A DNA stretch of 34,641 nucleotides from a virus, in IMG/VR virus record IMGVR_UViG_3300042731_006034, positions 1 through 34,641 of that record; one strand, 5' to 3'. The translations under genes and the position numbers were made by a program. The notes under the pieces were generated by a model. It saw nothing but the letters and a program-made list of their open reading frames with translations. It made no database searches and was not told the DNA's origin. Shown here piece after piece: positions 2,669 to 21,367 of this stretch; the stretch's first letter is position 1; the number at the start of each line of letters is the position of its first letter.

Positions 2669-2688
2669 ATTGCCCTAATTCATATCCA

Positions 2689-2928: not shown

Positions 2929-3490
2929 TTCTAAATACAGTGATTACGACAAAGAGTTCTTTTTAGCGGCGTATGAACTCAACGGACGCAAGTTTGTTCA
3001 GACACGCAAAGCTTTGCTGCGTAAGCGGATAAAATGTCCTTATAATGCGACATATCAGTGGGTGCGCCAGAAGGATAAGTATCACAAATTACGTATGGAA
3101 GAAAGAGAAAAGGTTATTAAACTGGCGTGGTCGAATGCGGTTCGTACTTTAGAATTGTCTTTTGATGATGCCAAGTTAAAGGAATTAAGCCCCGAAAAGG
3201 CGGCTTCGGTGCTAGAAAAGTTGGTGGGGACGGTGTTATTGCTGCAAGGTGAACCAACCACCCATGTTAAGATAGATGGAAACATTGACATCAGCGCAAT
3301 TGAGCGCAGAACTCAAGAACGACTTAAAACAATTGAGGCGGCTGCCGGTAGACTTGGCGGCGCAGGCGCAGATATGCTCCCTGTACCAGCAGAATCCGAG
3401 TCAACTTCTACCGTACTTTGCGACGGTGATGCAGAATTGCTATCACATCGTGAACAAGGACGGGGACAAGCAACTGTTGTGGATGAATAA
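2900..3490 (+). CDS. terS: Probable terminase small subunit
   Basis: 196 residues from the ATG at 2900, with GAGGG six bases upstream; a TTG three bases earlier is less likely. The N-terminal 60 residues are basic and helix-turn-helix-like (DKEFFLAAYELNGRKFVQTRKALL ... CPYNATYQWVRQKDKYHKL), as expected for pac/cos recognition by a small terminase. The middle is helical (SPEKAASVLEKLVGTVLLLQGEPTTHVKIDG) and resembles the oligomerisation and post-HTH regions of phage small terminases. Position directly before terL supports the call. The last 72 residues lie in a 215-base overlap with the terL reading frame. The first part of that tail (ISAIERRTQERLKTIEAAAGR) looks like real helical protein, while the final 40 residues look low quality and may be only a shadow. 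Confidence 0.65.
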   Translation: MAFQPGNLGNSKYSDYDKEFFLAAYELNGRKFVQTRKALLRKRIKCPYNATYQWVRQKDKYHKLRMEEREKVIKLAWSNAVRTLELSFDDAKLKELSPEKAASVLEKLVGTVLLLQGEPTTHVKIDGNIDISAIERRTQERLKTIEAAAGRLGGAGADMLPVPAESESTSTVLCDGDAELLSHREQGRGQATVVDE

Positions 3491-5117: not shown

Positions 5118-5132
5118 AACTATGGACACATA

Positions 5133-7108: not shown

Positions 7109-7117
7109 GGAGGTTAT

Positions 7118-7186
7118 ATGCTAAAAAGCTATAGCCGTTTTCACGGCAAAAGGAGTTATTCTTATGTTAGGAAAAGAACGCACTGA
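7118..7186 (+). CDS. Possible 22-residue basic mini-protein or leader peptide
   Basis: ATG at 7118 is preceded by a near-ideal RBS (AAGGAGG at 7107-7113, spacing 4). The reading frame runs 22 codons, MLKSYSRFHGKRSYSYVRKR plus two residues, to TGA at 7184-7186, overlapping the scaffold start at 7164. The product would be strongly basic and aromatic. Because the RBS is better than that of the scaffold gene, either this is a real mini-protein, or the ribosome loading site serves as a translational coupler for the scaffold. Nothing identifies a function. Confidence 0.3.
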   Translation: MLKSYSRFHGKRSYSYVRKRTH

Positions 7187-8012
7187 CCAGGGCCCTGAGT
7201 CTGAGGTACCGGCGGAGGCGTCCGCGTCCGACACTGGCGAAAGTGGCGCCAGTGCAGCGGCGGAAGCTCCGTCCGAGGCTGAGGGTACAGTCGCAGAAGC
7301 AGAGGCTTCGCCAACCCCAACCGTCGGAGGGGCGGCGACGGAACCCGACGACCCGTTTGCCGAGCTTCTGAAAGATTTTGTACCGAAGAAAGACCATGAT
7401 AATGCAACGCGGAAGATTACCCAACAAGGGCAAGAGTTAGCGGCCAGGGATCGTCAATTAGCTGATTTATCCCAGAAGTTTGATGCTTTACAACAAACGT
7501 TGACGCAGCAGCGTCAGCAGCAGGAAACTGACTGGGATACAGAAGGTGAGGGCAGCGACTACCAAACGCCTACCACGCCAGCTAATACGGTTACAGCCAC
7601 TCGACTTGATACCATTGAAGGGGCGTTGTTAGAGTTGCATCAAGAGTTACAGGGGTTTAATCAGCGATTTGCCCGGCAGAACACCTTACAGGAAGCGACC
7701 AAGCAAACGGGCATCCGCGAGGATGTTCTTCAGGTGTATCAAGACCTAAAGGATCGAGGGCAGGATGTGGAGGCCGCGGCTTTGCTGTCTAAAGCGGCGG
7801 TATTGGAACATGAGCAGCGTCAGCAGCAGCGGAAAGCCGAGCAGGAGAAGCAAGCCCGGGAAGTGGAGAAGATTATGCCCGGGGGCGGGGCGCGGGGGGA
7901 AGCTACTGTGCCTACCATTGACCCTTTAAAGCCGGAAGAACTTCCAGATGATAAAGCGCAGCGCGACCAATTTCGTCTAGGTCGCCTGAAAGAATGGTTT
8001 ACCAAAGGATAA
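7164..8012 (+). CDS. Probable capsid scaffolding protein
   Basis: 282 residues; ATG 7164 has AGGAG eight bases upstream. Residues 1-65 are acidic, Ala/Glu/Pro/Ser-rich and low complexity, hence disordered (SEVPAEASASDTGESGAS). The middle is a Gln/Lys/Asp-rich helical coiled coil (about 75-120 and 140-230, for example QELAARDRQLADLSQKFDAL and EHEQRQQQRKAEQEKQ). The C-terminus is charged and helical (DDKAQRDQFRLGRLKEWF). Acidic N-terminus, long coiled coil and a short basic C-terminal helix, placed just before the capsid gene, are the usual signature of phage scaffolds. They direct capsid assembly and then leave the head. No protease domain is visible. The call rests on composition and position, not on a conserved motif. 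Confidence 0.75.
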   Translation: MLGKERTDQGPESEVPAEASASDTGESGASAAAEAPSEAEGTVAEAEASPTPTVGGAATEPDDPFAELLKDFVPKKDHDNATRKITQQGQELAARDRQLADLSQKFDALQQTLTQQRQQQETDWDTEGEGSDYQTPTTPANTVTATRLDTIEGALLELHQELQGFNQRFARQNTLQEATKQTGIREDVLQVYQDLKDRGQDVEAAALLSKAAVLEHEQRQQQRKAEQEKQAREVEKIMPGGGARGEATVPTIDPLKPEELPDDKAQRDQFRLGRLKEWFTKG

Positions 8013-8116: not shown

Positions 8117-9151
8117 GTGGCACTCTTAGACCAACTAACCTCAGCTACTCGAGACGCTTTCGTAGGATTCAACGAAGAGCTGATGACGATGGAATATGCC
8201 GCCGCGAATATCTTGTTAAACCAAGCACGGACTGACCAAGATACCGGGGCGAATATCATCTTCGATGTCCTCTATGAGCGTCTGGGCGGGGGTTGGTATG
8301 CTGATTATGATACCTTTGACCAAGCCGCGCAGTCACGCATTACGCAAGGCGAAGTCGAATGGGCGGAATTATACGTCCCGATGCAAATATCGGGTACTGA
8401 ATTAAAGAAGAATGCCGGGATGACGGTATCGCAGGTAATGAGTTATAAGAAGTTAAATGAGATACCCGACCGGGGGAAGAACACGTTAGTAAACATCCTC
8501 AATTCTCAGATACGTCATGCGAAAGAAGATGCTAAACATCTGATAGCCAAAGGCATTTACGGTGATGGTTCAGGGAATGCGGGGAAACAAATGGACGGTT
8601 TTGGCAATATCATCGAAGCCAGCACTTCAGATTATGCCGGTATTGCTTATACAGAACTGACCGCTATCGATAAAAACAGTCATTTTAATGACCCAAATTA
8701 TCCGTGGCAACCGAAAGTGGATAGCAATAGCGGGACAAACCGGGCGTTGGATTGGTCGGCAATAATGACCATGTACCAAGACTGTCGTATTGGCAGTAAC
8801 AAGTCCGATTATGTGTTTGTGGACGGGCAGATGATAAATGCGGTTATCTCTGTTGCTTTAGGGGAAAACCAAAAGATACTTGAGGATGCCCGATTAGCCG
8901 AACTCGGATTTGAGCATGTCAAGATTGCTGGCGGGCCGACTTTCGTCGTGGACGATTACTGCGACGAGTACAATTTGTGGTGGATAAACACCAAACATAT
9001 GTGGATTCAAATGCACCCAACCGCGTGGGATTTCAGCGGCTGGAAGGTGCCGACCAACCAAAGCGCTTTGATTGCCCAGTTGACCATCATGTTACAGTTA
9101 GTTTGTGATGACCGGGGCAAGATGGGCTTTATGGACGACTACGAACCTTAA
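8117..9151 (+). CDS. Major capsid protein
   Basis: 344 residues from a GTG start at 8117. The protein resembles HK97-fold capsid proteins of the type found next to P22-like portals. It has an N-terminal arm (MALLDQLTSATRDAFVGFNEEL), a long E-loop-like region, the segment AKGIYGDGSGNAGKQMDGFGNII with its Gly-rich turn, then YVFVDGQMINAVISVALG. The C-terminal end is TFVVDDYCDEYNLWWINTKHMWIQMHP and QSALIAQLTIMLQLVCDDRGKMG, typical of the axial-domain and end strands. Position after the scaffold supports the assignment. It forms the icosahedral shell. A structured leader precedes it, and the next gene starts 16 bases after its stop. Confidence 0.88.
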   Translation: MALLDQLTSATRDAFVGFNEELMTMEYAAANILLNQARTDQDTGANIIFDVLYERLGGGWYADYDTFDQAAQSRITQGEVEWAELYVPMQISGTELKKNAGMTVSQVMSYKKLNEIPDRGKNTLVNILNSQIRHAKEDAKHLIAKGIYGDGSGNAGKQMDGFGNIIEASTSDYAGIAYTELTAIDKNSHFNDPNYPWQPKVDSNSGTNRALDWSAIMTMYQDCRIGSNKSDYVFVDGQMINAVISVALGENQKILEDARLAELGFEHVKIAGGPTFVVDDYCDEYNLWWINTKHMWIQMHPTAWDFSGWKVPTNQSALIAQLTIMLQLVCDDRGKMGFMDDYEP

Positions 9152-9167
9152 TAGGAGGTGGAGGACA

Positions 9168-9989
9168 TTGAAGATATTAACCGGACAAGAGATACATGAA
9201 CAGGCCTCCTCTCCGAAGGTACGTGCCGGAGAGTTGGCGCAGGATGAATTTGGGCGTATTTGGATATACCTACAAGCCAGTGAAACCTTAAGTTTTGGCA
9301 ATATTCTCAAGGCGAATTTGGCGGTTGCAAATGCTGATGTGGACACCGCAGCGGCAGCGGATACACGTCGAGTTACTGGTACGGGGGATTTCCCTACGAC
9401 TACTATAGTAGACGCAGCCGATGCTACTAAACATGGGCATCAATATCGTTTGTTTATTGATGCTGGCGCGGCTCAGAATCAAGGCGGGGTGATTAGCAAG
9501 CGGGTATCCAATAACGCCGTCGATGTCTACTGGGAAACCTCAGACGATGGCAAAATCGGGACAGCATTAACCACGTCTAGCGATTATTTGGTATATGTCT
9601 TTACGCGGGTAGCCAAAACCGCCGCGGCTACCGATAGAGTGGTAGCTATTGCCCAGATGGACATTACCGATGAGTATTGGTTTTGGGGTTTAGTGTTTGG
9701 GCATGGTTGGGTTTTATTGGACGGTGATGGTAATGCCCCGGCGGCTGCCGCTGGAGCTTTTGGCTTGATTCCCACGGCGGTTTCCGGGGTAGCTGGTGGG
9801 TTCACGGGTTCGCCGGCGTCAACCGAAGCGGGGATTGTCGAATTGGCTTGTTGCTTTGGTCATGCTATCATCGATACGGATACGACTGGGGATGTGTTAA
9901 TTCCCGGTTTGTTCAATTGTATGCGGACAATGCCGATAGCCTTTCCTGACATACCGCCTAGCCTGACGTATAATTACCCCAAGAAGTAA
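9168..9989 (+). CDS. Head-associated structural protein of unknown type
   Basis: I take TTG 9168 as the start (273 residues), because AGGAGGTGGAGG lies at 9153-9164, directly before it. An ATG at 9105 would put the first 21 codons inside the capsid gene. The protein begins KILTGQEIHEQASSPKVRAGEL and continues with alternating beta strands and Ala/Asp/Thr-rich segments: ANLAVANADVDTAAAADTRR, QYRLFIDAGAAQNQGGVISK, MDITDEYWFWGLVFGHGWVL. A Gly/Ala-rich region (PAAAAGAFGLIPTAVSGVAGG) follows. No enzyme motif is present. Position after the capsid gene and beta-rich composition suggest a capsid cement, decoration or minor head protein; this is inference. Confidence 0.65.
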   Translation: MKILTGQEIHEQASSPKVRAGELAQDEFGRIWIYLQASETLSFGNILKANLAVANADVDTAAAADTRRVTGTGDFPTTTIVDAADATKHGHQYRLFIDAGAAQNQGGVISKRVSNNAVDVYWETSDDGKIGTALTTSSDYLVYVFTRVAKTAAATDRVVAIAQMDITDEYWFWGLVFGHGWVLLDGDGNAPAAAAGAFGLIPTAVSGVAGGFTGSPASTEAGIVELACCFGHAIIDTDTTGDVLIPGLFNCMRTMPIAFPDIPPSLTYNYPKK

Positions 9990-9995
9990 CTAACA

Positions 9996-10026
9996 TTACG
10001 CCGTTAGCATAATGCTGGCGGCGTAA
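9996..10026 (+). repeat. 13-bp hairpin between two head genes
   Basis: Left arm 9996-10008 (TTACGCCGTTAGC) pairs with right arm 10014-10026 (GCTGGCGGCGTAA) over all 13 positions if two G-U pairs are allowed; the loop is ATAAT. It starts six bases after a stop codon and ends before the RBS AGGAGG (10035-10040). There is no T-run behind it, so it is not a standard terminator. It could act as an mRNA end or stability element, or as a weak attenuator setting expression of downstream genes relative to the capsid. Confidence 0.55.
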
Positions 10027-10049
10027 CCCTTATTAGGAGGATAAAGATA

Positions 10050-10508
10050 ATGGCGCATGGACGGACAACCTCTATGACGCATGAGAAGAACTGGAACAAG
10101 AAAGAAAAAGCTGCCCCCGATAATGTGCATGAACGGCATGTATTAATGGGGGCTAGGGTAAATGCTAATGAGCATTTAGAGTTCTATCGTAATTTTACCA
10201 ATGCCGGGCCGCCTTTTGTCATGAATAGCATCAATACGGAAACTATAGCTGCTACTAAAACGCTGACAGTGAATGATGCTTCTATACAATTTATTGACCC
10301 GGGCGGGGCTAATAGGGATATTGTTTTGCCGGCGGAAGCATCTTCAGCGGGGTATTTCTTCTTTATTAGCAATAGGGAAGATGTTACTGGTGATTTAGTT
10401 GTAAAGAACGACGGGGGCGATACTATTGCAACGGTTACGCTAACCGAATCCGCCTTAGTTATTTGCGATGGGACAAATTGGGCCGGCGGAGTATTAAAGG
10501 CAACCTAA
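10050..10508 (+). CDS. Small beta-rich virion protein
   Basis: 152 residues; AGGAGG lies ten bases upstream of the ATG. The N-terminal half is basic and hydrophilic (EKNWNKKEKAAPDNVHERHVLM). The C-terminal half is a beta-sandwich-like domain (TLTVNDASIQFIDPGGANRD, then SAGYFFFISNREDVTGDLVV, ending ESALVICDGTNWAGGVLKA). This last pattern, a strand ending in V-CDGTNW, is frequent in phage capsid decoration and tail-tip proteins. The N-terminal part loosely resembles the start of the tailspike at 23624 (W-NK-K ... R--LM-A-V-AN--L-F), so it may be a virion-docking element. I infer a head decoration or tail accessory. Confidence 0.6.
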   Translation: MAHGRTTSMTHEKNWNKKEKAAPDNVHERHVLMGARVNANEHLEFYRNFTNAGPPFVMNSINTETIAATKTLTVNDASIQFIDPGGANRDIVLPAEASSAGYFFFISNREDVTGDLVVKNDGGDTIATVTLTESALVICDGTNWAGGVLKAT

Positions 10509-10696
10509 TGACGCGGATAGAACTGCTCAAAGAATTGAATGGCATTGCGCATGATGTCATCTATGATGGCTTTGTGCCGTCCGATGAGGTTAGGGTGCGG
10601 CAGTTGTTGCAGGAATATATTACTGAACGAGGCAGTAGCAGCATCCTAAATGATAAAGTGGTCATGGGCATAGTACGAAGGATTCAGCGAGGTTGA
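10508..10696 (+). CDS. Small helical protein, unknown
   Basis: 62 residues from ATG 10508, which overlaps the previous TAA (TAATG); an in-frame start at 10463 would lie inside the upstream gene. The sequence is all-helical in appearance (TRIELLKELNGIAHDVIYDG, then RVRQLLQEYITERGSS and DKVVMGIVRRIQRG), mildly basic and without membrane segments. I do not recognise a family. It is the first of two tiny genes that separate the head genes from the glycan cassette. Confidence 0.5.
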   Translation: MTRIELLKELNGIAHDVIYDGFVPSDEVRVRQLLQEYITERGSSSILNDKVVMGIVRRIQRG

Positions 10697-10699
10697 ATT

Positions 10700-10867
10700 A
10701 TGAGGGATTTGTTGGTGGATATTAAAATAGGACTGCAAATGTTGGCGTATTCGGCAGAAAAAGTCTTACTTAGTAGCAAACGGGATAGGCGAACACCTAC
10801 TGGGGCTTCTTTGGTAGCTCTTAGGGTTGACCAAAGTTATGCTATTGCGCATAGTTATTTAGGATGA
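10700..10867 (+). CDS. Tiny protein at the cassette boundary
   Basis: 55 residues, starting at ATG 10700 three bases after the previous stop and ending with a TGA that overlaps the next gene's ATG (ATGA at 10864-10867). The protein has an amphipathic N-terminal helix (MRDLLVDIKIGLQMLAYSAE) and a basic middle (SSKRDRRTPT). No family was recognised. Tight coupling on both sides argues that it is translated. RBS evidence is weak (AGCGAGG at 10686-10692). Confidence 0.45.
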   Translation: MRDLLVDIKIGLQMLAYSAEKVLLSSKRDRRTPTGASLVALRVDQSYAIAHSYLG

Positions 10868-12555
10868 TAGTACGTCGCAATACCGACCATATTGGTGACG
10901 CATTAATGGCGTTAGCCATGATGCAACAAATACATGCTGATACTGGTGAGCAATTTGTTTGGGCTGGAACGCCAACGACTAACGCTTTAATGTATGGGCT
11001 GGATTATGTAACCACCACCCCGGCGGAACATTTGGTAAGGTGGGATGTGGACTTATCTGCTATTAAATATCCAGCATGGGCGGACTATGCCCAAGCATTT
11101 AATATTGAATGGCAGGGTGAGCCGGCGAAATTAAAACCGATACTACATGAGGAATTGCCAGATAATAACCGCTTGAAAGTCGGGCTTTGTTGTTGGTCGC
11201 GCGACAAGTTTCGTAGTTATCCGCATTGGAAGGCATTAAAAAAAAGATTAGCACAGTTGCATGATGTGTATTTGCTGGGCAAAGATAAGATTCCCATACA
11301 AGAATTGCTAAATATAGTTGCCCAACTGGACTATTTGGTTTCAGTAGATACCGGAATAGCACATATTGGCGGAGTTTTAGGGATACCATTAATTATTATT
11401 GCCGGCCCCACAGATTGCGAGTTATTGTACAAATATTATGACAATGTTCAATATGTTTCTACTGATGCTGATAAATGCGACCGTAAGCCTTGTGTTAATC
11501 AGCCGTGTAAGTATGTGAATTGTTTATATTTGATACGCCCCCGTGAAATAGCGGATGCTGTTTCGTGGGATAGGGTTATATTGCCCCAACCCGGTACTTC
11601 ACCCCCGTTAATTTTAAAAAGTACCTATCAGGACGCTATCGCTTTTATGCGATTGGATGGTTTGGGCGGCACTGTAACGTTATCTAATCATGCTTATAAA
11701 ACAAAACAAATATATGATTATCCTATAACATTGATAATTCGAGGATATGCAGAATTATTCGATGATAATCCAAATGTTGATAATATTATCACTGTTGGGG
11801 CAACTAATTGGGGTGATTGTCTTAAGGCTTTCCAAAATAGTTTTATGGCTATTGCTGATATACGCTTTGCTATACCTAAGTGGTATCAAACGTGCTCATT
11901 GTTTAAACAAGATTTGGGCGAATTAGAACAGATGTACAATAGTTTTGGGCTAGAGTATATGGGTTACCATGATTTGGTTCTGAATAGCACTTTGCATCAT
12001 ATACTAATGACTGACAAATTACTTGGACTGCCGCATGAAACAATAGAATCAAAGGTTTACTCATGGTCTGATGCAAAAGCAATTAAAGGTGATTACATTT
12101 GCATTAACAATGGTGTTGATATTATTCATCAGGGGCAACGCCAGACAAAATGTTGGGATTATTGGAACAAATTTGTTGGCTTGTGTGATGTGCCTGTTGT
12201 GCAGGTGGGAACTATAAATGACGTGCCAATTATTGGTACGCATGACATGCGAGGCAAAACAAATATCCACGAATTATGTGGTGTTCTAAAACATGCAAAA
12301 GCTATTATTTGCACTGAAGGCGGGATAATGCACCTAGCTTATGCTCTTAATCATCCTAAAACTATTGTTTTGCGTGGCCCAACCCGCGGGAAGATGTTTG
12401 AATACCCGGGGCAGATTATGGTTGATTCTTATGTGTGTGAAGCATGTACTTTCTGCAAACCCGACTGGTATCTAAGGTGCTATACTGATAGTGATGCTGT
12501 ATGTATGAAAACTATTACTCCAGAGAGGGTATATGAAACTTTGGTTACGCATTAA
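10864..12555 (+). CDS. Tandem GT9-type glycosyltransferase (heptosyltransferase-like fusion)
   Basis: 563 residues holding two copies of a GT9 (ADP-heptose/LPS heptosyltransferase-type) core. Copy 1: IGDALMALAMMQQI near residues 10-23 and the nucleotide-sugar motif VDTGIAHIGGVLGIP (D162, G164, H167). A Cys-rich stretch follows (CDRKPCVNQPCKYVNCLY, about 207-225). Copy 2: CTEGGIMHLAYALNHPKTIV (E485, G486, G487, H490), followed by GPTRGKMFEYPGQ and another Cys-rich tail (CEACTFCKPDWYLRC) ending ITPERVYETL. Members transfer a heptose or related sugar in the cytoplasm. Copy 1 is short at its N-terminal half and may not be a complete enzyme. It is coupled to the upstream tiny gene by ATGA and overlaps the next gene by 23 bases. 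The substrate is unknown. Confidence 0.85.
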   Translation: MIVRRNTDHIGDALMALAMMQQIHADTGEQFVWAGTPTTNALMYGLDYVTTTPAEHLVRWDVDLSAIKYPAWADYAQAFNIEWQGEPAKLKPILHEELPDNNRLKVGLCCWSRDKFRSYPHWKALKKRLAQLHDVYLLGKDKIPIQELLNIVAQLDYLVSVDTGIAHIGGVLGIPLIIIAGPTDCELLYKYYDNVQYVSTDADKCDRKPCVNQPCKYVNCLYLIRPREIADAVSWDRVILPQPGTSPPLILKSTYQDAIAFMRLDGLGGTVTLSNHAYKTKQIYDYPITLIIRGYAELFDDNPNVDNIITVGATNWGDCLKAFQNSFMAIADIRFAIPKWYQTCSLFKQDLGELEQMYNSFGLEYMGYHDLVLNSTLHHILMTDKLLGLPHETIESKVYSWSDAKAIKGDYICINNGVDIIHQGQRQTKCWDYWNKFVGLCDVPVVQVGTINDVPIIGTHDMRGKTNIHELCGVLKHAKAIICTEGGIMHLAYALNHPKTIVLRGPTRGKMFEYPGQIMVDSYVCEACTFCKPDWYLRCYTDSDAVCMKTITPERVYETLVTH

Positions 12556-13543
12556 TGGGATGGAGTTTTGTTCATGGCTGATAGTGTGGAACTGTCTTGC
12601 TAAAGTATTTACTAGCTTAGGCATAAAAGTATGGAAGTTTCCATGGGAGACACCTCCTGGCAATATTGAAGAATGGGTTGAGATGTGGTGGTGTGACCCT
12701 CAGTATTGGCAATGGAGCGAATTGCCGGTAAAGCTAAAGATTGGTATAGCATTATCTGAACACCAATCGCTTTTCGCGGATAATCCACAGCGTGTTATCG
12801 ATAATATTAATCAAGCTGATGTTCTATATTGCCCGTCTCGAAGTGCTATGCGAGCGTATTTAGAATCACCTATTGATATTCCTATTAAGTTAATGTCCTT
12901 TGGGGTAGATTCAGACGAATATAAATATTGCGAAAGAGATTATAATGCGAAACCTTTCAAGTTTTTGCATATTGGTGTTACGCAATTCAGAAAAGGAAGT
13001 TGGTTAGTGCCAGAAGCAATGTTGAAAGCATTTAACAAAAAGGATGATGTTACACTTTCTATTGTGGCGCACAGGACAAGTCCAATGTATGAACAATTAC
13101 TTAAGGAATATCAGGATAATTCGCAGATATGTTTTGTGCAGAAAAAAGTTAAACATCCGATTGAGCATTATCAGCAATATCATGTATTGGTTTCCCCTCA
13201 ACTATCTGAGGGCTTTGGTTTGTGCATCCCCGAAGCTATGGCGACTGGTATGCCATGTATAGTGTCAAGATGTTCAGCACCGCGTGAATATTTTGACAAA
13301 AAATATGGATGGTGGGTAGAAATGTCCGAACTGTATAGCCCGGTAAGCCAATGTTTTCCGGGAATCACTGGTTTATGGCGGCTGCCTGATGTCAATAGCT
13401 TGGCTGATGTGATGCGCTATGCTTATGAGCATAGAAATGAATGCAAAGAAAAAGGGAGACTAGCTAGTGAGTATGTATTATCTGATATGACATGGGAGAG
13501 AGGTGTTCAGCCCATCGTTGATTATGTAAGGAGTATAATATGA
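12533..13543 (+). CDS. GT4-family glycosyltransferase
   Basis: 336 residues; ATG 12533 has GAGAGGG about six bases upstream and overlaps the previous gene by 23 bases. The C-terminal Rossmann half is typical GT-B/GT4: FKFLHIGVTQFRKGSWLVPEA, VTLSIVAHR, then SPQLSEGFGLCIPEAMATGM with the EX7E pair E226 and E234 that holds the nucleotide sugar. The N-terminal half (KLWLRINGMEFCSWLIVWN ... ALSEHQSLFADN ... VLYCPSRSAMRAYLES) is less conserved but has the expected 'sentinel' segment before the linker (IKLMSFGVDSDEY). It should transfer a sugar with retention of configuration. The donor and acceptor cannot be read from the sequence. Confidence 0.87.
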   Translation: MKLWLRINGMEFCSWLIVWNCLAKVFTSLGIKVWKFPWETPPGNIEEWVEMWWCDPQYWQWSELPVKLKIGIALSEHQSLFADNPQRVIDNINQADVLYCPSRSAMRAYLESPIDIPIKLMSFGVDSDEYKYCERDYNAKPFKFLHIGVTQFRKGSWLVPEAMLKAFNKKDDVTLSIVAHRTSPMYEQLLKEYQDNSQICFVQKKVKHPIEHYQQYHVLVSPQLSEGFGLCIPEAMATGMPCIVSRCSAPREYFDKKYGWWVEMSELYSPVSQCFPGITGLWRLPDVNSLADVMRYAYEHRNECKEKGRLASEYVLSDMTWERGVQPIVDYVRSII

Positions 13544-14418
13544 AACTATCAATGTTGCTGCCAGTATTAAATGAAGGGCAATTATTAGAAGCTAATTTGG
13601 AAACAACACTGCCGTATGTTGATGAAGCTATTATTGTTGATGGGGGACCTGAAGGCCCATCTACTGATGACACCGCGTCTATTGTGGAACAGTTTAGCAA
13701 GGTGCATCCGGGTAAGATTACTTATTTATCAGATACCTTTGATTTAGGCGATACTACTTGGGATGAATCGAAACAGCGGAATCTAGGTTTAAGCAAAGTC
13801 ACCGGTGACTTTCTTATGCCCCACTGTGGTGACATGATATATGATGAAGAGGATATGGCCAGGTTAAGGGAGGCGGTTGATAAATATAGTGATAAAAAGA
13901 TTTTCTTTTGTTTCTTTTTAGAGTTTTGGCTTAATATTAACCACCTCAGGTTATATCGTGCTCCTGAGAGTTTTAATGCGTGGTTTCCGGTACCACAGAT
14001 TGGTGATATTCCAATACTCTCTATGGAATTGGAATTGTATTATGAGAATGGCCCCTGTTTGCATTTTAATCACTCACTTCTGACTAATTATGATTTTCTT
14101 TATATTCATAAAGTAACAAGATTTCATTATGGCTGGATTACGCCATTTGAAAAGCAGGTAGCTAAACACGTTCGTAATATAAAGCAGGGGGAATGGGCAG
14201 AGCATGGCGAGCAATTAAAAGCGAAAGGGGAAGCTGCAATTTACGCTTGGGCTGTAAATCATGTTTTGTCCTATGAAGGTTTGGATTGCAAATATGTATA
14301 TACCGGGATGCAGCCTAAGCAACTTCAGGATAGAGAATTTAGTTATCTTGATGGTTATGAGGAAACTATTGTAAAATATGAGGATAAGTTTGGTAAGAAC
14401 TTTTGGTTAGAAGGATGA
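13540..14418 (+). CDS. GT2-like glycosyltransferase with altered metal motif
   Basis: 292 residues, ATGA-coupled to the preceding gene. The GT-A start is clear: KLSMLLPVLNEGQLLEANL and EAIIVDGGPEGPSTDDT. Next come TWDESKQRNLGLSKVTGD and, where the metal-binding Asp pair normally stands, FLMPHCGDMIYDEED (residues 92-105). The usual DAD/ADE is therefore replaced by H95-C96-G97-D98, leaving one Asp. The C-terminal part has conserved aromatic stretches (FLEFWLNINHLRLYRAPESF, TRFHYGWITPFEKQVAKH), as in phage and bacterial GT2 proteins. It may be a metal-poor variant enzyme or a non-catalytic subunit. Other GT-A families are less likely. Confidence 0.78.
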   Translation: MKLSMLLPVLNEGQLLEANLETTLPYVDEAIIVDGGPEGPSTDDTASIVEQFSKVHPGKITYLSDTFDLGDTTWDESKQRNLGLSKVTGDFLMPHCGDMIYDEEDMARLREAVDKYSDKKIFFCFFLEFWLNINHLRLYRAPESFNAWFPVPQIGDIPILSMELELYYENGPCLHFNHSLLTNYDFLYIHKVTRFHYGWITPFEKQVAKHVRNIKQGEWAEHGEQLKAKGEAAIYAWAVNHVLSYEGLDCKYVYTGMQPKQLQDREFSYLDGYEETIVKYEDKFGKNFWLEG

Positions 14419-15659
14419 AAATTGTATTTATTAATCCGCCTATACCGGAATTAGCTGATGATAGACTTGAGCCTCCGCTAGGCATATTATCTGTTGCGTC
14501 ATATTTACAATGCTATGGTATTGATGTGGAAATAGTTGATCTAAGCGGCGGCGTAGATATAAATATTCCTGCCGCTGATTTTTATGGGTTCTATACTTGC
14601 ACGTCAAGTTATCACCGTGCTATGGCAATTAGCAAGCAAGTTAATGGACTAACAATTGCCGGGGGTCCACATGCTTCAGCACTCCCAAAGGAAGTTGCAA
14701 AGAACTTTGATTTTGTAGTTGTTGGCGAGGGTGAAGTTGCTACGTTGAATATAGTTCGTGGTAAAACGACAGAGTGTATAGTCCAAGGGATGCCAGTTGA
14801 GAAGTTGGACAACCTGCCATTCATAGATTATTCGCTCATAGACATGGCGACATATCACCGCACAGTTGATGGGGAGAAATCATTCCCCATGTTATCGTCA
14901 CGTGGATGCCCATATTCGTGTGCATTTTGCAACTCTATTATCATGGGACGTAATCACAAGACAAGGCTTAGGAGCCCTGAGCATGTTATTGCTGAGATGA
15001 AAATGCTAATAGATAAATATGGTGTATCACATTTCCGCTTCCATGATGACATATTTGGCATGGATAAAAAATGGTTAGTGCAATTTACTGACATGGTAAA
15101 GGATTTGGATATTGTTTATCGGGCTTTCGTTAGGGCTGACCAATGTGCTAAAGATGGATTTACTGATTTGTTATACGATGGAGGTTGCCGTCTGGTTGCA
15201 ATCGGGATTGAATCCGGTTCGGATGAGATGTTGGGAAGAATGGACAAACGAGTAACTAGAGAGATATGTTTTAGTGGCATCCGAAAGGCCAAAGAATCGG
15301 GACTAACTGTTCGGTCATACTTTATCGTAGGATTCCCCGGTGAAACGTGGGAAACAATTAGTGATACTGTTGATTTTATTAAGATTGCACAGCCTGATGA
15401 ATATATGGTGTACTCGTTTATTCCATATCCTGGTACACCTGTATATCACCATCCTGAGCGATATGGGATAAAGCAGTTATCGACAAACTTTAATGATTAT
15501 TTCTTTATCTATGGTGATAGAGAATCAAAGTACATTTACGAAACTGATACACTGACGGCGGGTGTAATCAAAGAGATGCGAGAATATATCATAGCAGAAG
15601 CTGATAGATTGCAATTATCATGGGCTAGTAAAAAAGAAGGCCAACATGATGAAAATTAG
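14415..15659 (+). CDS. B12-binding-type radical SAM enzyme
   Basis: 414 residues from ATG 14415 (ATGA overlap); a TTG at 14403 is in frame but lies within the upstream gene. Residues 1-115 form a cobalamin-binding-like Rossmann domain (INPPIPELADDRLEPPLGIL, TIAGGPHASALPKEV, VVVGEGEVATL). The radical SAM core has SSRGCPYSCAFCNS with cluster cysteines C165, C169 and C172. It continues with FHDDIFGMDKKWLVQF, LVAIGIESGSDEML and SYFIVGFPGETWETI, all standard core motifs. Such enzymes use a 4Fe-4S cluster, SAM and often cobalamin for C- or P-methylation, ring changes or oxidations. No DxHxxG cobalamin-His motif was seen, which is common in this group. Context suggests modification of a sugar or glycolipid. 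The substrate is unknown. Confidence 0.9.
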   Translation: MKIVFINPPIPELADDRLEPPLGILSVASYLQCYGIDVEIVDLSGGVDINIPAADFYGFYTCTSSYHRAMAISKQVNGLTIAGGPHASALPKEVAKNFDFVVVGEGEVATLNIVRGKTTECIVQGMPVEKLDNLPFIDYSLIDMATYHRTVDGEKSFPMLSSRGCPYSCAFCNSIIMGRNHKTRLRSPEHVIAEMKMLIDKYGVSHFRFHDDIFGMDKKWLVQFTDMVKDLDIVYRAFVRADQCAKDGFTDLLYDGGCRLVAIGIESGSDEMLGRMDKRVTREICFSGIRKAKESGLTVRSYFIVGFPGETWETISDTVDFIKIAQPDEYMVYSFIPYPGTPVYHHPERYGIKQLSTNFNDYFFIYGDRESKYIYETDTLTAGVIKEMREYIIAEADRLQLSWASKKEGQHDEN

Positions 15660-16539
15660 TGCTTATCTATGGAGTGTAGCAGCAGAGAATATGTTTTTTC
15701 CATATAAAGCAAGTATAGAATCTATTTTGTCTTTAGTGGATGAAGTTGTCATTGCAATTGACCCCAATCTCGAAAACGCATCAATTTATACTCAGTTAAG
15801 TAATAAAGTAAGAATTATTAAGTGCAAATATGATGTCCTAAGTTGGGATATTCGCAACCAAATGTTGCAAGCAGCCAGAGCAGAATGTATTGGTGATTGG
15901 TGTTTGTATTGGCAACTTTGTGGTGTGCTTCATGAAAAGGATGCAGAGCTAATCGAGACCACTCTTGATAACACTTCCGCTACTTATGTTCCACTCGGAC
16001 AAATATCGGTTTGGGGTATGAGGAGATATGGTGTCTCAAGAGTTGGCTTGCCATGGCTCACAAGAAATTTATCTAATTTCCAGCATCATACACCAAGTTA
16101 TCATATAGGCAGTATGGATTCTATAGTGTACGATGGTAAATATATTATAGATGGTGATGATGCTATTCTTTGCGATATTACAGTGGATAGCTGGTTTGCG
16201 AACTCCCCGTCCTGCCTCGCAGATATTAGCTTATTAGCACCCGACACAAAAACTTTAGGTGAAAATCCTGAAAAATATTCATCTATTTATTATTACACTT
16301 TTTATAATTGGAACAGGAAGACCGCACAGGGAGAAATAGACCGCATTTATCACGATAGAGTATACGGGCGATGTTCTGATTTGGATGCTGAAAAGTATTA
16401 TTTGGGACTTAAGCAACCGTTAGTGTTTACCAATGAGTTTGAAACACCAATGCCACAGGCGCAATGGTATTTTAATCTTAATCATCCGAAGTATATTCGT
16501 GATTGGCTTAATACATACGGAATAAGAGAACCAGAATGA
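15646..16539 (+). CDS. GT2-like protein lacking the metal-binding Asp pair
   Basis: 297 residues; ATG 15646 is used (ATG 15649 is equally possible) and overlaps the previous gene by 14 bases. The GT-A frame is present: MKISAYLWSVAAENMFFPYK, DEVVIAIDPN and SWDIRNQMLQAARAECIGDW. At the position where relatives read QADEVLHEKD, this protein reads YWQLCGVLHEKD (residues 88-99), so both acidic metal ligands are missing. The rest (HIGSMDSIVYDGKYIIDGDD, IYYYTFYNWNRKTAQGE, NHPKYIRDWLNTYGI) is intact, so this is not a decayed gene. I infer a non-catalytic or alternative-mechanism paralogue acting with the neighbouring transferases. Confidence 0.68.
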   Translation: MMKISAYLWSVAAENMFFPYKASIESILSLVDEVVIAIDPNLENASIYTQLSNKVRIIKCKYDVLSWDIRNQMLQAARAECIGDWCLYWQLCGVLHEKDAELIETTLDNTSATYVPLGQISVWGMRRYGVSRVGLPWLTRNLSNFQHHTPSYHIGSMDSIVYDGKYIIDGDDAILCDITVDSWFANSPSCLADISLLAPDTKTLGENPEKYSSIYYYTFYNWNRKTAQGEIDRIYHDRVYGRCSDLDAEKYYLGLKQPLVFTNEFETPMPQAQWYFNLNHPKYIRDWLNTYGIREPE

Positions 16540-17486
16540 GCAAAATAGCAATATCATTTACAGGTTGGTTTCAATTTGATAATTGGCAGGTGTCAGCGGG
16601 AGGTGCTGAAAGGGAATTAGTATATCTAGGCATGTTATTAGCAGATGACAACGATGTTACTTTTTATGGTAGAACAGAATCAGAATGGTATCATAATGGT
16701 CTTTGTGTGAAACCGTCAGAAGAAATTTGTGATAGCTTTGATATTTTTATCTCGAATAATACTTGCCCTAATTCCAGTGCAAAATATTGTTATTATACCT
16801 GGACAGATTTTGTTACCATCTCAGCTTTGCCGGACTTAATTATCACTGATACCAAAAGAGGCAAGGCGCTATATGAAATTCAAGGGCATAAATCTATTGT
16901 TCTTTATCCCCCTATCAAGCCAGCAGGTTTTGATAGTAATAGGGATATGCAGAAGGTGCTTTTTGTTGGACGGCACACACCGGATAAAGGTCTTGATATA
17001 GCTATTGAAGCGGCTAATTTAATGCCGGATAAAAAATTGCATGTTATTGGCAACTCATGTCTTGATAGCAGTAAGGTGCCCGGTATGAATGTTGTTAGTG
17101 AGGTCTATTATAAGCATTGCCGAGAGTTATCTGCTGAAAACATCATCTGGCGTGGCAATTTGGAATATGATGTTGTGTTAAGCGAGATGCGTTCTGCGAA
17201 TATGATTATTATTCCATACCAAACTTCTAATGAGTACAATACTAATGTAGCTTTAGAAGCAATTGCCAATGGTTGCGTCCCAGTAATAGCCTATGGATTA
17301 ACCGATTATTTGACACCTGATAACGCAGTGATATTGCCAGATGCACGGAACTTAAAACCGGAATTTGTGGCAATGATAATATCAAATATACATGATACTG
17401 AAAGATATAGAGAAGCTGGTTGGCGTACAGCAAAAGAGATATATGATTATTGCAATAATGAGTTAAAGGAAACTATATGCGGATAA
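16536..17486 (+). CDS. GT4-family glycosyltransferase
   Basis: 316 residues, ATGA-coupled to the gene before it. The N-terminus has the Gly-rich entry of GT-B enzymes (WQVSAGGAERELVYLGMLLA). The C-terminal domain shows VLFVGRHTPDKGLDIAIEAA, the strand KKLHVIGNS and IIWRGNLEYDVVLSEMRSAN. It then has MIIIPYQTSNEYNTNVALEA with EX7E at about E233 and E241. This is a retaining transferase of sugar from a nucleotide donor. It is shorter than typical GT4 (about 350-400), mostly in the N-terminal acceptor domain, as phage versions often are. The acceptor is unknown. Confidence 0.85.
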   Translation: MSKIAISFTGWFQFDNWQVSAGGAERELVYLGMLLADDNDVTFYGRTESEWYHNGLCVKPSEEICDSFDIFISNNTCPNSSAKYCYYTWTDFVTISALPDLIITDTKRGKALYEIQGHKSIVLYPPIKPAGFDSNRDMQKVLFVGRHTPDKGLDIAIEAANLMPDKKLHVIGNSCLDSSKVPGMNVVSEVYYKHCRELSAENIIWRGNLEYDVVLSEMRSANMIIIPYQTSNEYNTNVALEAIANGCVPVIAYGLTDYLTPDNAVILPDARNLKPEFVAMIISNIHDTERYREAGWRTAKEIYDYCNNELKETICG

Positions 17487-18100
17487 ATTTAACTGATTAT
17501 AAATTTGATGTTGTCACTAAAATCTTTGAGGTTATTGGCAGTACTAATAATTTTGCTATTGAGCTTGGCGCAGCGGATGGGGATGGCAACTTCTACAATA
17601 GGTTCATTCATTTTAATTGGTTGTTACTAGGTGCAAGTTATAGTAAATTGCCAACATTTTTAACAAGAGAGAATATTAATGGTTTATTATATAAGTACAA
17701 CACGCCTAAAGTTTATGATTTGTTGGTAATTGACATTGATTATAATACTTTTTGGATTTGGGAAGCTATCAGAGAACATATAGCACGGGTTGTTGTGATA
17801 GAATACAATGCAATGTTATCACCAGATGAAGATAAAATAGTAAAATACAAACCTAATGGTGCTTGGGATGGAAGTGATTATTTTGGGGCTAGTATCTTAT
17901 CGTTATTTAAACTTGGCAGAGATAAAGAATATTCCCTAGTTTATATTGATAGAGATAATTTGTTTTTTATCCACGATAGTTGCGAACCCGGAAAATATTT
18001 CATAAATAGCAACGAACCACCGGCATCAATACTAAATTATCAGCATAGTGATAGGGATTTTGTATCTTATGAAAGATATAAAAAAGAAAGATTTGAGTAA
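17477..18100 (+). CDS. FkbM-like SAM-dependent methyltransferase
   Basis: 207 residues, overlapping the previous gene by 10 bases. Motif I for SAM binding is FAIELGAADGDG (residues 27-37). A later strand DLLVIDIDYNTFWIWEAI (81-98), then RVVVIEYNAML and DGSDYFGASILSLFKLGRDK, match a family of methyltransferase-like proteins that occur in sugar biosynthesis clusters. The reaction is probably O-methylation of a sugar, though no acceptor residue can be assigned. Base composition is low in G+C: 17 of 60 bases at 17701-17760. The next gene starts 32 bases before its end. Confidence 0.72.
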   Translation: MRINLTDYKFDVVTKIFEVIGSTNNFAIELGAADGDGNFYNRFIHFNWLLLGASYSKLPTFLTRENINGLLYKYNTPKVYDLLVIDIDYNTFWIWEAIREHIARVVVIEYNAMLSPDEDKIVKYKPNGAWDGSDYFGASILSLFKLGRDKEYSLVYIDRDNLFFIHDSCEPGKYFINSNEPPASILNYQHSDRDFVSYERYKKERFE

Positions 18101-18611
18101 GGTATTTCCAACTTTCCCACATGATATTGAAGTAGAAATAATGGGTTATTATAGAGCAACAGAGCGCAATGATGCTGAGTTGTTGGTAAGGCTTGGTCTT
18201 GCAATAGGTGCGGAAAATATATTGGAATTAGGCACATGGGAGGGAGATACTACGTTGTTATTATCGCATTATTTCGACAAGGTGTATACTGTGGATATTC
18301 AGCCAAAAGTTGAATTGCATATTGATAATGTGGTGCAGATTTGTGCTGATTCTCTTAAATATGATACTTATGCCGCTATTCCACCACCAATACATTTAGC
18401 ATTTATTGATGGTGGTCACGAATATACCAACGTTGTAACTGATACATTCCACGCATTGCGACTAATCACTAATGGTGGTCTCATAGTTTTTCATGATGTC
18501 GCATCATGGCCTGATGTTAAACTAGCATTGGATGATTTATCTTATTGCTTTGACATCTACCACATAGTTGACGATAATCACATAGGCAACATGGCATTTG
18601 TACTAATATGA
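18069..18611 (+). CDS. Class I SAM-dependent methyltransferase
   Basis: 180 residues from ATG 18069 (KDIKKKDLSKVF); an in-frame start at 18048 would lengthen it by seven residues inside the upstream gene. Motif I is ENILELGTWEGDTTLLLS (about 49-66), followed by KVYTVDIQPKVEL. The hallmark HLAFIDGGHEYTNVVTD (109-125) is typical of the Methyltransf_24 group, and NGGLIVFHDVASWPDV follows. These proteins commonly O-methylate sugars in glycan clusters. It sits between another methyltransferase and a radical SAM gene, and its stop overlaps the next start (ATGA). Confidence 0.8.
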   Translation: MKDIKKKDLSKVFPTFPHDIEVEIMGYYRATERNDAELLVRLGLAIGAENILELGTWEGDTTLLLSHYFDKVYTVDIQPKVELHIDNVVQICADSLKYDTYAAIPPPIHLAFIDGGHEYTNVVTDTFHALRLITNGGLIVFHDVASWPDVKLALDDLSYCFDIYHIVDDNHIGNMAFVLI

Positions 18612-19936
18612 TAACATTCATTATTGACGACTATATCATAGACCCTTTAGGTATTGCTTATTTATCGGCGATGCTAAAGCAAGCCGGGCATAAACCGAAA
18701 TTGCTTCTGACTGAAGCGTTAAAAACGCAAGAGATAACTACGCCCATTGTAGCTTTTTCGGTAACCACTGGCAAGCATACGCATTATACTGAAGTCAGTC
18801 AAGAGCTAAAACGTCAATATCCGCATCTGACTGCTATCTTCGGGGGACCACATTGTACCTTTTTCCCTGACTTTGTCAAACATGCTGCTGTTGATTATTT
18901 ATTTCGGGGTGAAGGATTTGAGGCTATCGTCCAATTTATCGATAATTGGGATACTGACAAACTGTATGACACTGCTAACTTAGTTTATGTGCATGCCCCT
19001 TGCACTGAAACGGTACGAGAGAATGAATTATCACCCCCTTTTGAAGTAGCTAAATTACCTTTTCCTGACCGAGAACTTATCTATCAATACAAGGAAAACC
19101 GGGAGAATCCCATCAAAAACATTATGGCATCTTTTGGCTGTCCGATGCGTTGTTCTTATTGCTACAATGAACAATATACTAAATTGGGTTATCCTTTAAG
19201 GGTTAGACCGGTGGATAGTGTGGTAGAAGAGGGAGCAAAATTAGCAAAGGACTATCCGGCAACGCAGTTAATCTTCTTTCAGGATGATATTTTCCCTATT
19301 TATCGCCCCGAATGGATAACCGAATTCGCCCGGCAGTGGCGCGCTAAAGTGAAGTTGCCCTTTCATATTCAATTTAGAATTGAGATGCTTACAGAAATGG
19401 TTTTAGCTACTTTAAAACATGCTGGGTTGCATAGTTGCACTTTTGCTTTAGAATCGGCTAATGCAGATACGAGAGTAGTTTTGTTAAACCGGCAGGTAAC
19501 GGATACGCAAATAAAAGCGGGGGTTAAGCTCTTACAGCAGTATGGGATAAAATATCGGATAGAAAATATGTTGGGGTTGCCCCATGAAACGTTAGATGAT
19601 GCTTTGGCAACTTTGGACTATAACATTGCTTGCCGCCCGGCTATTGCATGGGCTTCGTTGTACACTCCTTATTTTGGGACAAAATTAGGGAACTATTGTC
19701 GGGATAAGGATTTAATTGAAACAACCAAATGGGGTGCTGATTTTTTTACCCATGCGTCGTTGAAACTGCCGCGAAAGAAACAAATAGAGAGAATTCAAAA
19801 ACTATTTGCTTTGATTTGTGCTATGCCAATGTTGCGTTGTCTTTTGCCTTGGTTAATTCGTTTACCACTGAATTATCAAAGAGTATACCAGTGGGCAAAA
19901 CAATACCTTTACAAGCACAGGTTATATAAATGTTAA
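18608..19936 (+). CDS. Second B12-binding-type radical SAM enzyme
   Basis: 442 residues, ATGA-coupled. The N-terminal cobalamin-binding-like domain shows DPLGIAYLSAMLKQAGHKPK, TAIFGGPHCTFFPDF and DYLFRGEGFEAIVQF. The core has MASFGCPMRCSYCYNEQ with C178, C182 and C185, then LIFFQDDIFPIYRPEWITEF, HSCTFALESANADTRV and YRIENMLGLPHETLDDAL. The C-terminus is hydrophobic (LFALICAMPMLRCLLPWLIR), suggesting membrane or lipid-substrate contact. It shares only the general plan with the other radical SAM protein, so the pair is not a recent duplication. It ends the cassette; a 124-base gap follows. The substrate is unknown, and a polyprenyl-linked glycan or lipid is a reasonable guess. Confidence 0.9.
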   Translation: MITFIIDDYIIDPLGIAYLSAMLKQAGHKPKLLLTEALKTQEITTPIVAFSVTTGKHTHYTEVSQELKRQYPHLTAIFGGPHCTFFPDFVKHAAVDYLFRGEGFEAIVQFIDNWDTDKLYDTANLVYVHAPCTETVRENELSPPFEVAKLPFPDRELIYQYKENRENPIKNIMASFGCPMRCSYCYNEQYTKLGYPLRVRPVDSVVEEGAKLAKDYPATQLIFFQDDIFPIYRPEWITEFARQWRAKVKLPFHIQFRIEMLTEMVLATLKHAGLHSCTFALESANADTRVVLLNRQVTDTQIKAGVKLLQQYGIKYRIENMLGLPHETLDDALATLDYNIACRPAIAWASLYTPYFGTKLGNYCRDKDLIETTKWGADFFTHASLKLPRKKQIERIQKLFALICAMPMLRCLLPWLIRLPLNYQRVYQWAKQYLYKHRLYKC

Positions 19937-20060: not shown

Positions 20061-20366
20061 ATGAAACATTTAACCCGTGGCTCAGCCGTGACTATTTGGT
20101 TCACCACGAAAACGAAGTCCACTTATGCCGGGGCGTGGTCTTACGCCGACCCGGACAACGGGTGCAAGATAACTATTGTTCGGGAAAGTGATAATTCCAC
20201 CATTATTGACGATGTGGCGATGACTAAAAGTGCGACGGGGATATATTATTATTATTGGCAGACGACCACCAGTTATGGCATTGGGCGGTATGTTGTCCAG
20301 TGCACTGCTGACGGAACAACGTATGATGGTATCTTCAAAGAAACCTTAGCCTATGTGGAGGGTTGA
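20061..20366 (+). CDS. Small Ig-like beta protein
   Basis: 101 residues from ATG 20061, with GGAG nine bases upstream; an in-frame TTG at 20034 has no RBS and is not used. It begins KHLTRGSAVTIWFTTKTKST and has the beta-sandwich run DNGCKITIVRESDNSTIIDD, GIYYYYWQTTTSYGIGRYVV and DGIFKETLAYVE. This is an Ig-like/transthyretin-type domain common in phage particles. It has the same general plan as the small protein at 26474 and the first domain of the appendage protein at 570. I infer a structural accessory placed at the neck. No catalytic features are present. Confidence 0.6.
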   Translation: MKHLTRGSAVTIWFTTKTKSTYAGAWSYADPDNGCKITIVRESDNSTIIDDVAMTKSATGIYYYYWQTTTSYGIGRYVVQCTADGTTYDGIFKETLAYVEG

Positions 20367-20368
20367 TA

Positions 20369-21367
20369 ATGGCATACAAACGGGTTGAGATTAGAGAAAA
20401 ATTACGGCGCAAACTCTCGGAAATCGAAGAAGGAACATGGAGTGATGATGAACTTAACGACTGTATCGGTGATGGGGAAAGAAGAACGTGTGAAGAATGC
20501 ACCGTGCAGAATGAAATGGGCTTAATTGATGAGCAGCAGTCCCACCAAATTATTGCTGACCAGTACGAGTATCCCTTGCCCTCCGACTTTCTCGACTTTA
20601 TCAGTGTAGAACAATTCTATAGTGGTGAATATTGTCCTTTGCGATACAAAAGTTACCGAGAGCTACGGCGGGGGCAACGCCCGGGAACAACCAGTGGGCG
20701 AATGCTCTGGTTTGCGTTGGGACGGCGGATGCGAGCAGTGTTGGGCAATGGCGCTTGTGATGCGGGCGGTTCATCGACGGCTTTAATAGATGCGGCCGTA
20801 GACTTTTCAACGTGGGGTATTCGGGAAAGTAAAGCCTATGCCCATAATGACACCGACGATAGTTACGCGTTAATCACCACAGTAGCCGCCAACCAATTGA
20901 CTACGGCCGCTTTAACTGGTGGGGCAGACAACACGTGGAGCGAGGATGATAGCTATTACGTTGAAGAAATAGAAGCAACCTTGGATAGTATCATGGTAGA
21001 CCCAACCCCCAGCACCTCTGATGATACTGGTACAGAGAACCTTTATATCCAGTATAGTAGGTATGCTCGGACGATGACCGCCGACCAAGACTACTCGGAA
21101 ATCCCGGACTATGCGTTGGATACTCTTTTATATGCGTCAGCTATTTATGCCTTAGAGAAAAAAGAAGGGGTGGGGACGGCAGTAGTGGCAAATACCACTC
21201 AAATGTTTAAGTTTGAAGCGGCGGAAGTACGCCGGTTTATGCAACGAAGAGGACAAACCAATTACCGTAGGGTACGGGATGTATCTCTTTGGGGTACGGG
21301 GATAGGTATTCATGGACGGGTGCAGTCGGCAACTCGACAAGACCCCAGTCCATTGACCGCAGGATAA
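20369..21367 (+). CDS. Neck adaptor / head-tail connector (P22 gp4-like)
   Basis: 332 residues; I take ATG 20369, GGAGGG lies about six bases upstream, and the frame overlaps no upstream coding sequence. The N-terminal helices (KRVEIREKLRRKLSEIEEGT, SDDELNDCIGDGERRTCEEC) and the middle DQYEYPLPSDFLDFISVEQF are typical of the gp4-like adaptor that closes the portal. So is the C-terminal helical part (DYALDTLLYASAIYALEKKE, FKFEAAEVRRFMQRRG, RRVRDVSLWGTG). Residues about 126-198 (DAGGSSTALIDAAVDFSTWG ... GGADNTWSEDDSYYVEE) look like an inserted beta module found in other phage proteins. The adaptor joins portal to nozzle. Its order before the nozzle gene supports this call. Confidence 0.78.
   Translation: MAYKRVEIREKLRRKLSEIEEGTWSDDELNDCIGDGERRTCEECTVQNEMGLIDEQQSHQIIADQYEYPLPSDFLDFISVEQFYSGEYCPLRYKSYRELRRGQRPGTTSGRMLWFALGRRMRAVLGNGACDAGGSSTALIDAAVDFSTWGIRESKAYAHNDTDDSYALITTVAANQLTTAALTGGADNTWSEDDSYYVEEIEATLDSIMVDPTPSTSDDTGTENLYIQYSRYARTMTADQDYSEIPDYALDTLLYASAIYALEKKEGVGTAVVANTTQMFKFEAAEVRRFMQRRGQTNYRRVRDVSLWGTGIGIHGRVQSATRQDPSPLTAG

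Follow-up and report, generated by a model that had tools for sequence, protein, structure and literature searches.

Nine overlapping genes in a late phage region

We analyzed a viral DNA stretch of 34,641 bases (IMG/VR record IMGVR_UViG_3300042731_006034, hereafter the window), an apparent genome fragment with open reading frames (ORFs) open at both ends, and in particular a cassette of putative glycan-assembly genes embedded among its structural genes. As the initial annotation had described, nine overlapping ORFs on the same strand occupy positions 10864-19936, between the decoration and adaptor genes. Seven of the nine (genes 1, 2, 3, 4, 6, 8 and 9) fall in recognised Pfam families, so that the labels first given to them as glycosyltransferases (GTs), methyltransferases (MTs) or radical S-adenosylmethionine (SAM) enzymes stand, while "GT2-like" for gene 5 and "methyltransferase" for gene 7 are only tentative. 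Identities in the following list are to viral contigs L092 and L234/L235, described below, and to a cyanophage protein.

10864..12555, + strand: gene 1, tandem GT9 (PF01075 twice, 2e-17; 38% to L092)
12533..13543, + strand: gene 2, GT4 glycosyltransferase (PF13692, 4e-15; E-x7-E intact; 51% to L092, 48% to L234/L235)
13540..14418, + strand: gene 3, GT2-family glycosyltransferase (PF00535, 2.6e-7; 47% to L092)
14403..15659, + strand: gene 4, B12-binding/radical SAM enzyme, rSAM1 (PF04055, 7e-20; PF02310, 2e-8; CPYSCAFC)
15646..16539, + strand: gene 5, very divergent GT2-like protein (label tentative)
16536..17486, + strand: gene 6, GT4 glycosyltransferase (PF00534, 7e-9; E-x7-E intact)
17477..18100, + strand: gene 7, probable class I methyltransferase (ELGAADG motif; 32-33% to a cyanophage S-SM2 protein)
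18048..18611, + strand: gene 8, Methyltransf_24 SAM methyltransferase (PF13578, 2.7e-14; alternative start at ATG 18069)
18608..19936, + strand: gene 9, B12-binding/radical SAM enzyme, rSAM2 (PF04055, 9e-16; PF02310, 7e-12; CPMRCSYC)

All eight internal junctions of the cassette overlap, by 4 to 53 nucleotides (nt). The coupling had been called mostly ATGA, which was somewhat overstated, as only three junctions are of this type as called, or four with the gene 4 start placed at ATG 14415, which is likelier than 14403. We also found two small ORFs, absent from the initial annotation, that link gene 1 to the decoration gene and are separated from each other by a 3-nt gap (lengths in amino acids, aa).

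10508..10696, + strand: 62-aa ORF coupled to the decoration gene (1-nt overlap of its ATG with the stop codon before it)
10700..10867, + strand: 55-aa ORF coupled to gene 1 (4-nt ATGA overlap with the gene 1 start)

Positions 10050-19936, from the decoration gene to gene 9, are therefore one coupled gene chain with gaps of at most 3 nt, and because of this continuity the cassette is probably co-expressed with the head genes. A promoter and terminator scan gave counts near or modestly above those of shuffled sequence (56 versus 41 ± 6 and 14 versus 10 ± 3.5, respectively) and was not used. The base composition of the cassette is foreign to the rest of the window, with a GC content of 0.387 versus 0.481, a GC content at third codon positions (GC3) of 0.25-0.38 in its genes versus about 0.40-0.55 in the phage genes, and sharp shifts at about 11.0 and 20.0 kb. 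The lower GC and GC3 indicate that the cassette was horizontally acquired into the late operon.

The late region itself is of the P22/SU10 podovirus type according to Pfam and PHROG matches, which recovered the structural flanks proposed initially (major head protein, portal, terminase and SU10 adaptor). The closest database phages are distant, with about 28% identity for the terminase, 21% for the portal and 23% for the capsid.

3276..5117, + strand: terminase large subunit (PHROG phrog_2, 3e-15; ~28% to Roseobacter phage CRP-7 TerL)
5133..6839, + strand: portal protein, P22 type (PF16510, 2.7e-30; phrog_156, 1e-45)
7164..8012, + strand: probable scaffold protein (from its place between portal and major head protein; acidic, Gln-rich)
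8117..9151, + strand: major head protein, candidate acceptor (phrog_9953, 1.9e-24)
9168..9989, + strand: probable decoration protein 1, candidate acceptor (from its position 3' of the major head protein; upstream ribosome-binding site AGGAGG; no match in the PHROG family search)
10050..10508, + strand: probable decoration protein 2, candidate acceptor (phrog_32934, 4.5e-8; first gene of the coupled chain)
20363..21367, + strand: head-tail adaptor protein, downstream boundary (PF24175 SU10_adaptor, 2.8e-13)
23624..26464, + strand: right-handed beta-helix tail spike, candidate acceptor (PF13229, 1.4e-51; PF12708, 1.9e-20)

A 620-aa protein is encoded between the adaptor and the spike.

The cassette enzymes and their relatives

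Genes 4 and 9 both encode the CX3CX2C motif and an N-terminal B12-binding-type domain, with both domains above the Pfam cut-offs. We placed them in a quick maximum-likelihood tree in which some viral rows are duplicates. Among the matches listed, rSAM1 grouped with L092 (support 100) and then with contigs L093-L095 (94), within a clade (95) of 25 rows, 22 viral and 3 from uncultured cellular sources, whereas rSAM2 fell in an all-viral clade (100) with L240 as its nearest relative. Identities follow the same pattern, as gene 4 is 48% identical to L092 and 39% to L093-L095, the best cellular rSAM1 among the matches listed reaches 33%, and gene 9 is 36% identical to L142. Both enzymes thus seem to belong to a viral lineage and not to have been captured recently from hosts.

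The best PDB match of both radical SAM profiles is AprD4 (6fd2; 2e-33 for rSAM1 and 2.5e-23 for rSAM2), a radical SAM diol dehydratase that deoxygenates a sugar (PMC5461906). AprD4 is therefore the closest solved sequence of genes 4 and 9 and acts on a sugar, but it needs an AprD3-type reductase partner, and none was identified in this analysis. The NCBIfam matches were to methyltransferases and cyclases, all below cut-off, those of rSAM2 being best with HpnJ/BchE-type enzymes. As the superfamily of B12-type radical SAM enzymes also includes methyltransferases, the AprD4 match does not assign the reaction of genes 4 and 9. Therefore, a methylated sugar is one option among several, considering that AprD4 deoxygenates and that the NCBIfam matches span methyltransferases and cyclases.

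In gene 1, the GD motif is kept in the first GT9 domain, while GGT replaces it in the second (window 11599-12552), as it does in L092 and in the second copy of L234. As only domain 1 has the GD aspartate, catalysis may reside there, with domain 2 serving in recognition or having diverged. As a separate observation, the GD and GGT domains could form a pair of an active and a divergent enzyme. The top PDB sequence match of domain 2 is TibC, a protein heptosyltransferase in which Cys 339, 342, 358 and 370 are required for assembly and for glycosylation of a beta-helix protein (PMC4358343). A four-Cys iron finger is predicted in domain 2 with all four cysteines in register with TibC, and this motif is absent from the E. 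coli lipopolysaccharide (LPS) heptosyltransferases WaaC, WaaF, WaaQ and WaaU. Gene 1 shares with the TibC/BAHT protein O-heptosyltransferases a GT9-type catalytic domain (PF01075), and this phage encodes a beta-helix spike, the fold of the TibC substrate. Gene 1 differs in being tandem and in that no N-terminal beta-barrel is demonstrated in it; its score with NCBIfam TIGR04414 is 29 bits, below the curated cut-off of 200.

Among the other enzymes, the closest PDB sequence of gene 3 is GmaR (3e-7), a flagellin glycosyltransferase, and that of gene 2 is chlorovirus B736L (8e-5), a protein of unproven function; by resemblance, these two are weak hints towards protein glycosylation. Gene 5 shows no obvious DxD where expected, and comparing its profile with that of gene 3 gave no significant match. 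Gene 7 had no family match, and its assignment as a methyltransferase is plausible from the ELGAADG motif and from its relative in an S-SM2 sugar-gene cluster. AlphaFold models of genes 5 and 7, made without alignments, had mean-confidence (pLDDT) values of 31 and 35 and were unusable. Gene 8 has weak relatives within the cassettes of L093 and L095. Family matches revealed no integral-membrane GT, flippase, polymerase or ligase within the cassette, and no transmembrane segment was seen in it save one hydrophobic stretch in gene 9. A tblastn search of genes 1, 3 and 5 against 50,697 phage records gave no match.

Similar cassettes beside capsid genes of other phages

Scans of viral contigs with the single sequences of the major head protein or rSAM1 gave no match, and profiles were required. 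A terminase profile scan recovered 80 distant relatives, none with the cassette, whereas an rSAM1 profile scan found L092, a 29-kb contig in which tandem GT9, GT4, GT2 and rSAM1 genes follow one another as in the window, with identities of 38, 51, 47 and 48%, respectively. L092 derives from an unrelated siphophage, as judged by its tape measure (3e-41), tail completion (1.5e-8) and GP4-type fiber (7e-78) genes, and its GC is uniform. Its cassette continues with two PF13524 glycosyltransferases and methyltransferases and sits in the late region, with the fiber gene 5' and, 3', a holin-like ORF and an M15-type endolysin (a lysis pair by eye). In the 159-kb phage L234/L235, a GT9-GT4-GT9 set related to genes 1 and 2 lies in the replication region, near exonuclease and helicase genes (L234 7181-10090). 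Comparison of L092 and L234/L235 with the window defines a conserved core (GT9, GT4, GT2, rSAM) followed by a variable tail.

The initial annotation had suggested looking for the same block between the capsid and adaptor genes of related phages, and such arrangements were indeed found: at least 8 viral contigs (L093, L095, L099, L100, L104, L129, L142 and L251) carry, just 3' of the major head gene or separated from it only by a decoration gene, a cassette in which GT genes, MT genes or both accompany a relative of rSAM1 or rSAM2. For this count, ORF maps were read manually and key genes were backed by family matches. Neck, adaptor or tail-completion genes follow the cassette in every contig long enough to include them, namely L093, L099, L100, L129 and L142, the adaptor match being below cut-off in L099 and the adaptor of L142 being called by eye. 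The major head proteins belong to five further capsid families, namely phrog_1357 (L095, L099; the L093 capsid is similar to this type, PF25209 1.2e-5), phrog_1005 (L100), phrog_133/4523 (L104), phrog_10 (L129) and phrog_14242 (L142, L251), which makes six with phrog_9953 of the window. In L240, the cassette lies between a neck1 gene (9e-23) and a tail gene (2e-21), and in L106, L107, L108 and L112 it is found elsewhere within the head module. The relatives Mx9, BUCT555 and ppBjS10J-1 lack a cassette: their capsid genes are followed by tail or neck genes, and no GT is listed. Streptomyces phage GT4 relatives (29%) were not used as homologous cassettes, as their neighbour genes differ.

We also noticed several features of individual contigs. 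The L240 cassette (2636-11353) comprises two GT4 genes, a SPASM-like radical SAM gene, a gene for an aldo-keto-reductase-like protein, a GT9 gene and the rSAM2 relative. The L099 cassette (13723-16410) ends in an 895-aa GT2-TPR repeats-GT4 fusion, and that of L129 opens with a GT2-TPR protein. In L108, ORFs 3' of the major head gene (10578-12069) read by eye as a possible sulfotransferase and a GT2-like protein, and an rSAM/GT pair lies 5' of the terminase. In L095, HNH/NUMOD-type homing endonuclease-like ORFs lie beside the capsid gene and after rSAM1 (5028-5573 and 11196-11765), a possible route for cassette mobility.

A virion protein as the probable acceptor

Modification of a virion protein by phage-encoded enzymes has precedents. 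Mycobacteriophage Corndog carries gp35-38 (an O-methyltransferase, two GTs and one N-acetylglucosamine transferase) between its portal and protease genes, and capsid modification has been proposed for them (PMC4351075); according to a later article, glycosylation has been reported for virion proteins of Corndog, Che8 and Myrna, with gp38 essential (PMC12363180, citing Freeman et al. 2023). We made the comparison with two phages of the Corndog group (Cluster O mycobacteriophages), Catdawg (gp33-36) and Firecracker. In both systems overlapping MT and GT genes lie inside the head-gene operon, but the Corndog-group genes occupy the portal-protease site instead of the capsid-neck site, number four instead of nine and include no radical SAM, GT9 or GT4 tandem. 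As the Catdawg equivalents are not homologous, the window cassette is not a member of this system by descent; by analogy, it would work like it. In chlorovirus PBCV-1, soluble enzymes that are independent of the endoplasmic reticulum, including a GT/methyltransferase (A064R, A111/114R, A075L and others), build a methylated capsid glycan (PMC5408694). The likeness lies in the virus-encoded soluble enzymes and in gene 2, whose best match among solved structures is chlorovirus B736L, whereas PBCV-1 is a eukaryotic algal virus with scattered, early genes, N-glycans and no radical SAM enzymes.

Taken together, we consider it probable that the nine genes are a late, cytosolic glycan-assembly cassette that adds sugars, methylated or edited by radical chemistry, to a protein of the phage's own virion. 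Virion glycosylation, which the initial annotation had favoured, remains the best-supported explanation because of the late coupling, the recurrence beside capsid genes, the lack of a membrane transferase or flippase and the Corndog-group precedent; the acceptor, the sugar and methylation by the radical SAM enzymes are still candidates. In such a scheme, ribosomes translating the head genes would continue along the coupled chain into the cassette, and a priming glycosyltransferase would put a first sugar, drawn from host nucleoside diphosphate (NDP)- or ADP-sugars, on a Ser or Thr of the capsid, decoration or spike protein. Extension of the glycan would then fall to the GT9, GT4 and GT2 enzymes, and its sugars would be methylated, deoxygenated or otherwise edited by the SAM methyltransferases together with both B12-type radical SAM enzymes. 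A soluble protein acceptor fits, as the cassette has no integral-membrane GT, flippase, polymerase or ligase. By position, the decoration proteins and the major head protein are candidate acceptors, and the beta-helix spike is a candidate by analogy with TibC.

Several observations weigh against this explanation. GT9 domain 2 appears to lack an equivalent of the catalytic Asp110 of TibC, if the GD motif kept in domain 1 is its counterpart, and its match to TibC is weak (E 1.9e-4). Gene 3 has a conserved HCGD where DxD is expected, gene 5 has no match in Pfam, NCBIfam, PHROGs or PDB sequences, and the hydrophobic C-terminal segment of gene 9 could mean a membrane-bound substrate. With phmmer, Catdawg gp33-36 gave nothing at E<0.01 against the window and its relatives. 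Moreover, related enzymes lie outside the structural region in the larger phages L094, L098, L234/L235 and L246, and since short contigs are called viral by hallmark genes, closeness to structural genes is partly a matter of ascertainment. Ascertainment accounts less readily for the position right behind the capsid gene than for mere proximity.

The cassette could instead alter the LPS, O-antigen or another surface glycan of the host, for superinfection exclusion or against re-adsorption of virions to debris. This would be in line with GT9 being the LPS heptosyltransferase family, with the HpnJ/BchE-type matches and hydrophobic C-terminus of rSAM2, and with the only phage relative found for gene 7, which lies in the S-SM2 sugar/LPS-like cluster. 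That cluster is also large, but it is not set among head genes, includes genes for NDP-sugar synthesis and otherwise has a different gene content. We consider modification of the host envelope unlikely, as coupling ties the cassette to late head genes, cassettes of this kind keep turning up next to capsid genes, the window cassette contains none of the integral-membrane Gtr-type transferases, flippases, polymerases or ligases by which O-antigen/LPS conversion modules work, and no lysogeny gene is present within the window, itself a genome fragment. Hypermodification of DNA, with the GTs decorating modified phage bases and the MTs and radical SAM enzymes, which could act on bases, editing them further, has a basis in virus-encoded DNA-hypermodifying glycosyltransferases (published work cited in PMC12619734). 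It appears very improbable here, considering that neither the cassette nor the window encodes a base hydroxymethylase, a TET-like oxygenase, a thymidylate-synthase homologue or a base kinase and that, in most of the small contigs, the cassettes adjoin capsid genes and not nucleotide genes.

The capsid-neck slot might also simply tolerate inserts, in which case cassette functions would be mixed and location would be uninformative on the acceptor. Cassette make-up does vary apart from rSAM, the GC of the cassette is unlike that of the phage, and HNH-like ORFs are also found in the head regions of relatives. The inserts, on the contrary, are not random cargo, as GT, MT and B12-type radical SAM genes occur together in them time and again, and the Corndog-group phages independently have GT and MT genes among their head genes together with capsids reported to be glycosylated; a merely permissive landing site is thus improbable in our view. 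Finally, the jumps in base composition could betray a misassembly or contamination with a host operon, the case that the initial annotation had raised against itself. Independent viral contigs rule against it, as the four-gene block is also present in L092 and similar cassettes occupy the same slot in many others; in addition, coupled genes run across the upstream junction and the closest rSAM1 and rSAM2 relatives are viral, which leaves an artefact hardly credible.

So far, phage virion glycosylation has been documented in a small number of mycobacteriophages that have between one and three glycosyltransferases. If the cassette does glycosylate the virion, many uncultured phages with differing capsids would carry far larger cassettes in one recurrent slot, their radical SAM enzymes could make C-methylated or deoxygenated sugars, and phage particles would offer new glycans and new enzymes to edit them. 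Questions would also be opened on particle stability, adsorption and recognition, and a simple rule for finding such systems would be to inspect the capsid-neck gene interval. A wider proposal, which we hold to be possible yet somewhat doubtful, is that modular "capsid-slot" cassettes are widespread, are swapped among unrelated tailed phages and build virion glycans edited by B12-type radical SAM enzymes of viral lineage. Such a class would represent the first known radical chemistry on a virus particle's own glycan.

Away from the cassette, the window opens with a LamG-like fragment (1-564, open at the window start). The next ORF (468-2480) encodes a fiber-like protein of 670 aa for which Pfam and PHROG searches gave no match. 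At the other end, positions 29082-34640 encode a giant internal/ejection-type protein of more than 1853 aa, open at the window end, in which a ParB-like segment seems, by eye, to be present (VNGHNRVELAQRSG).

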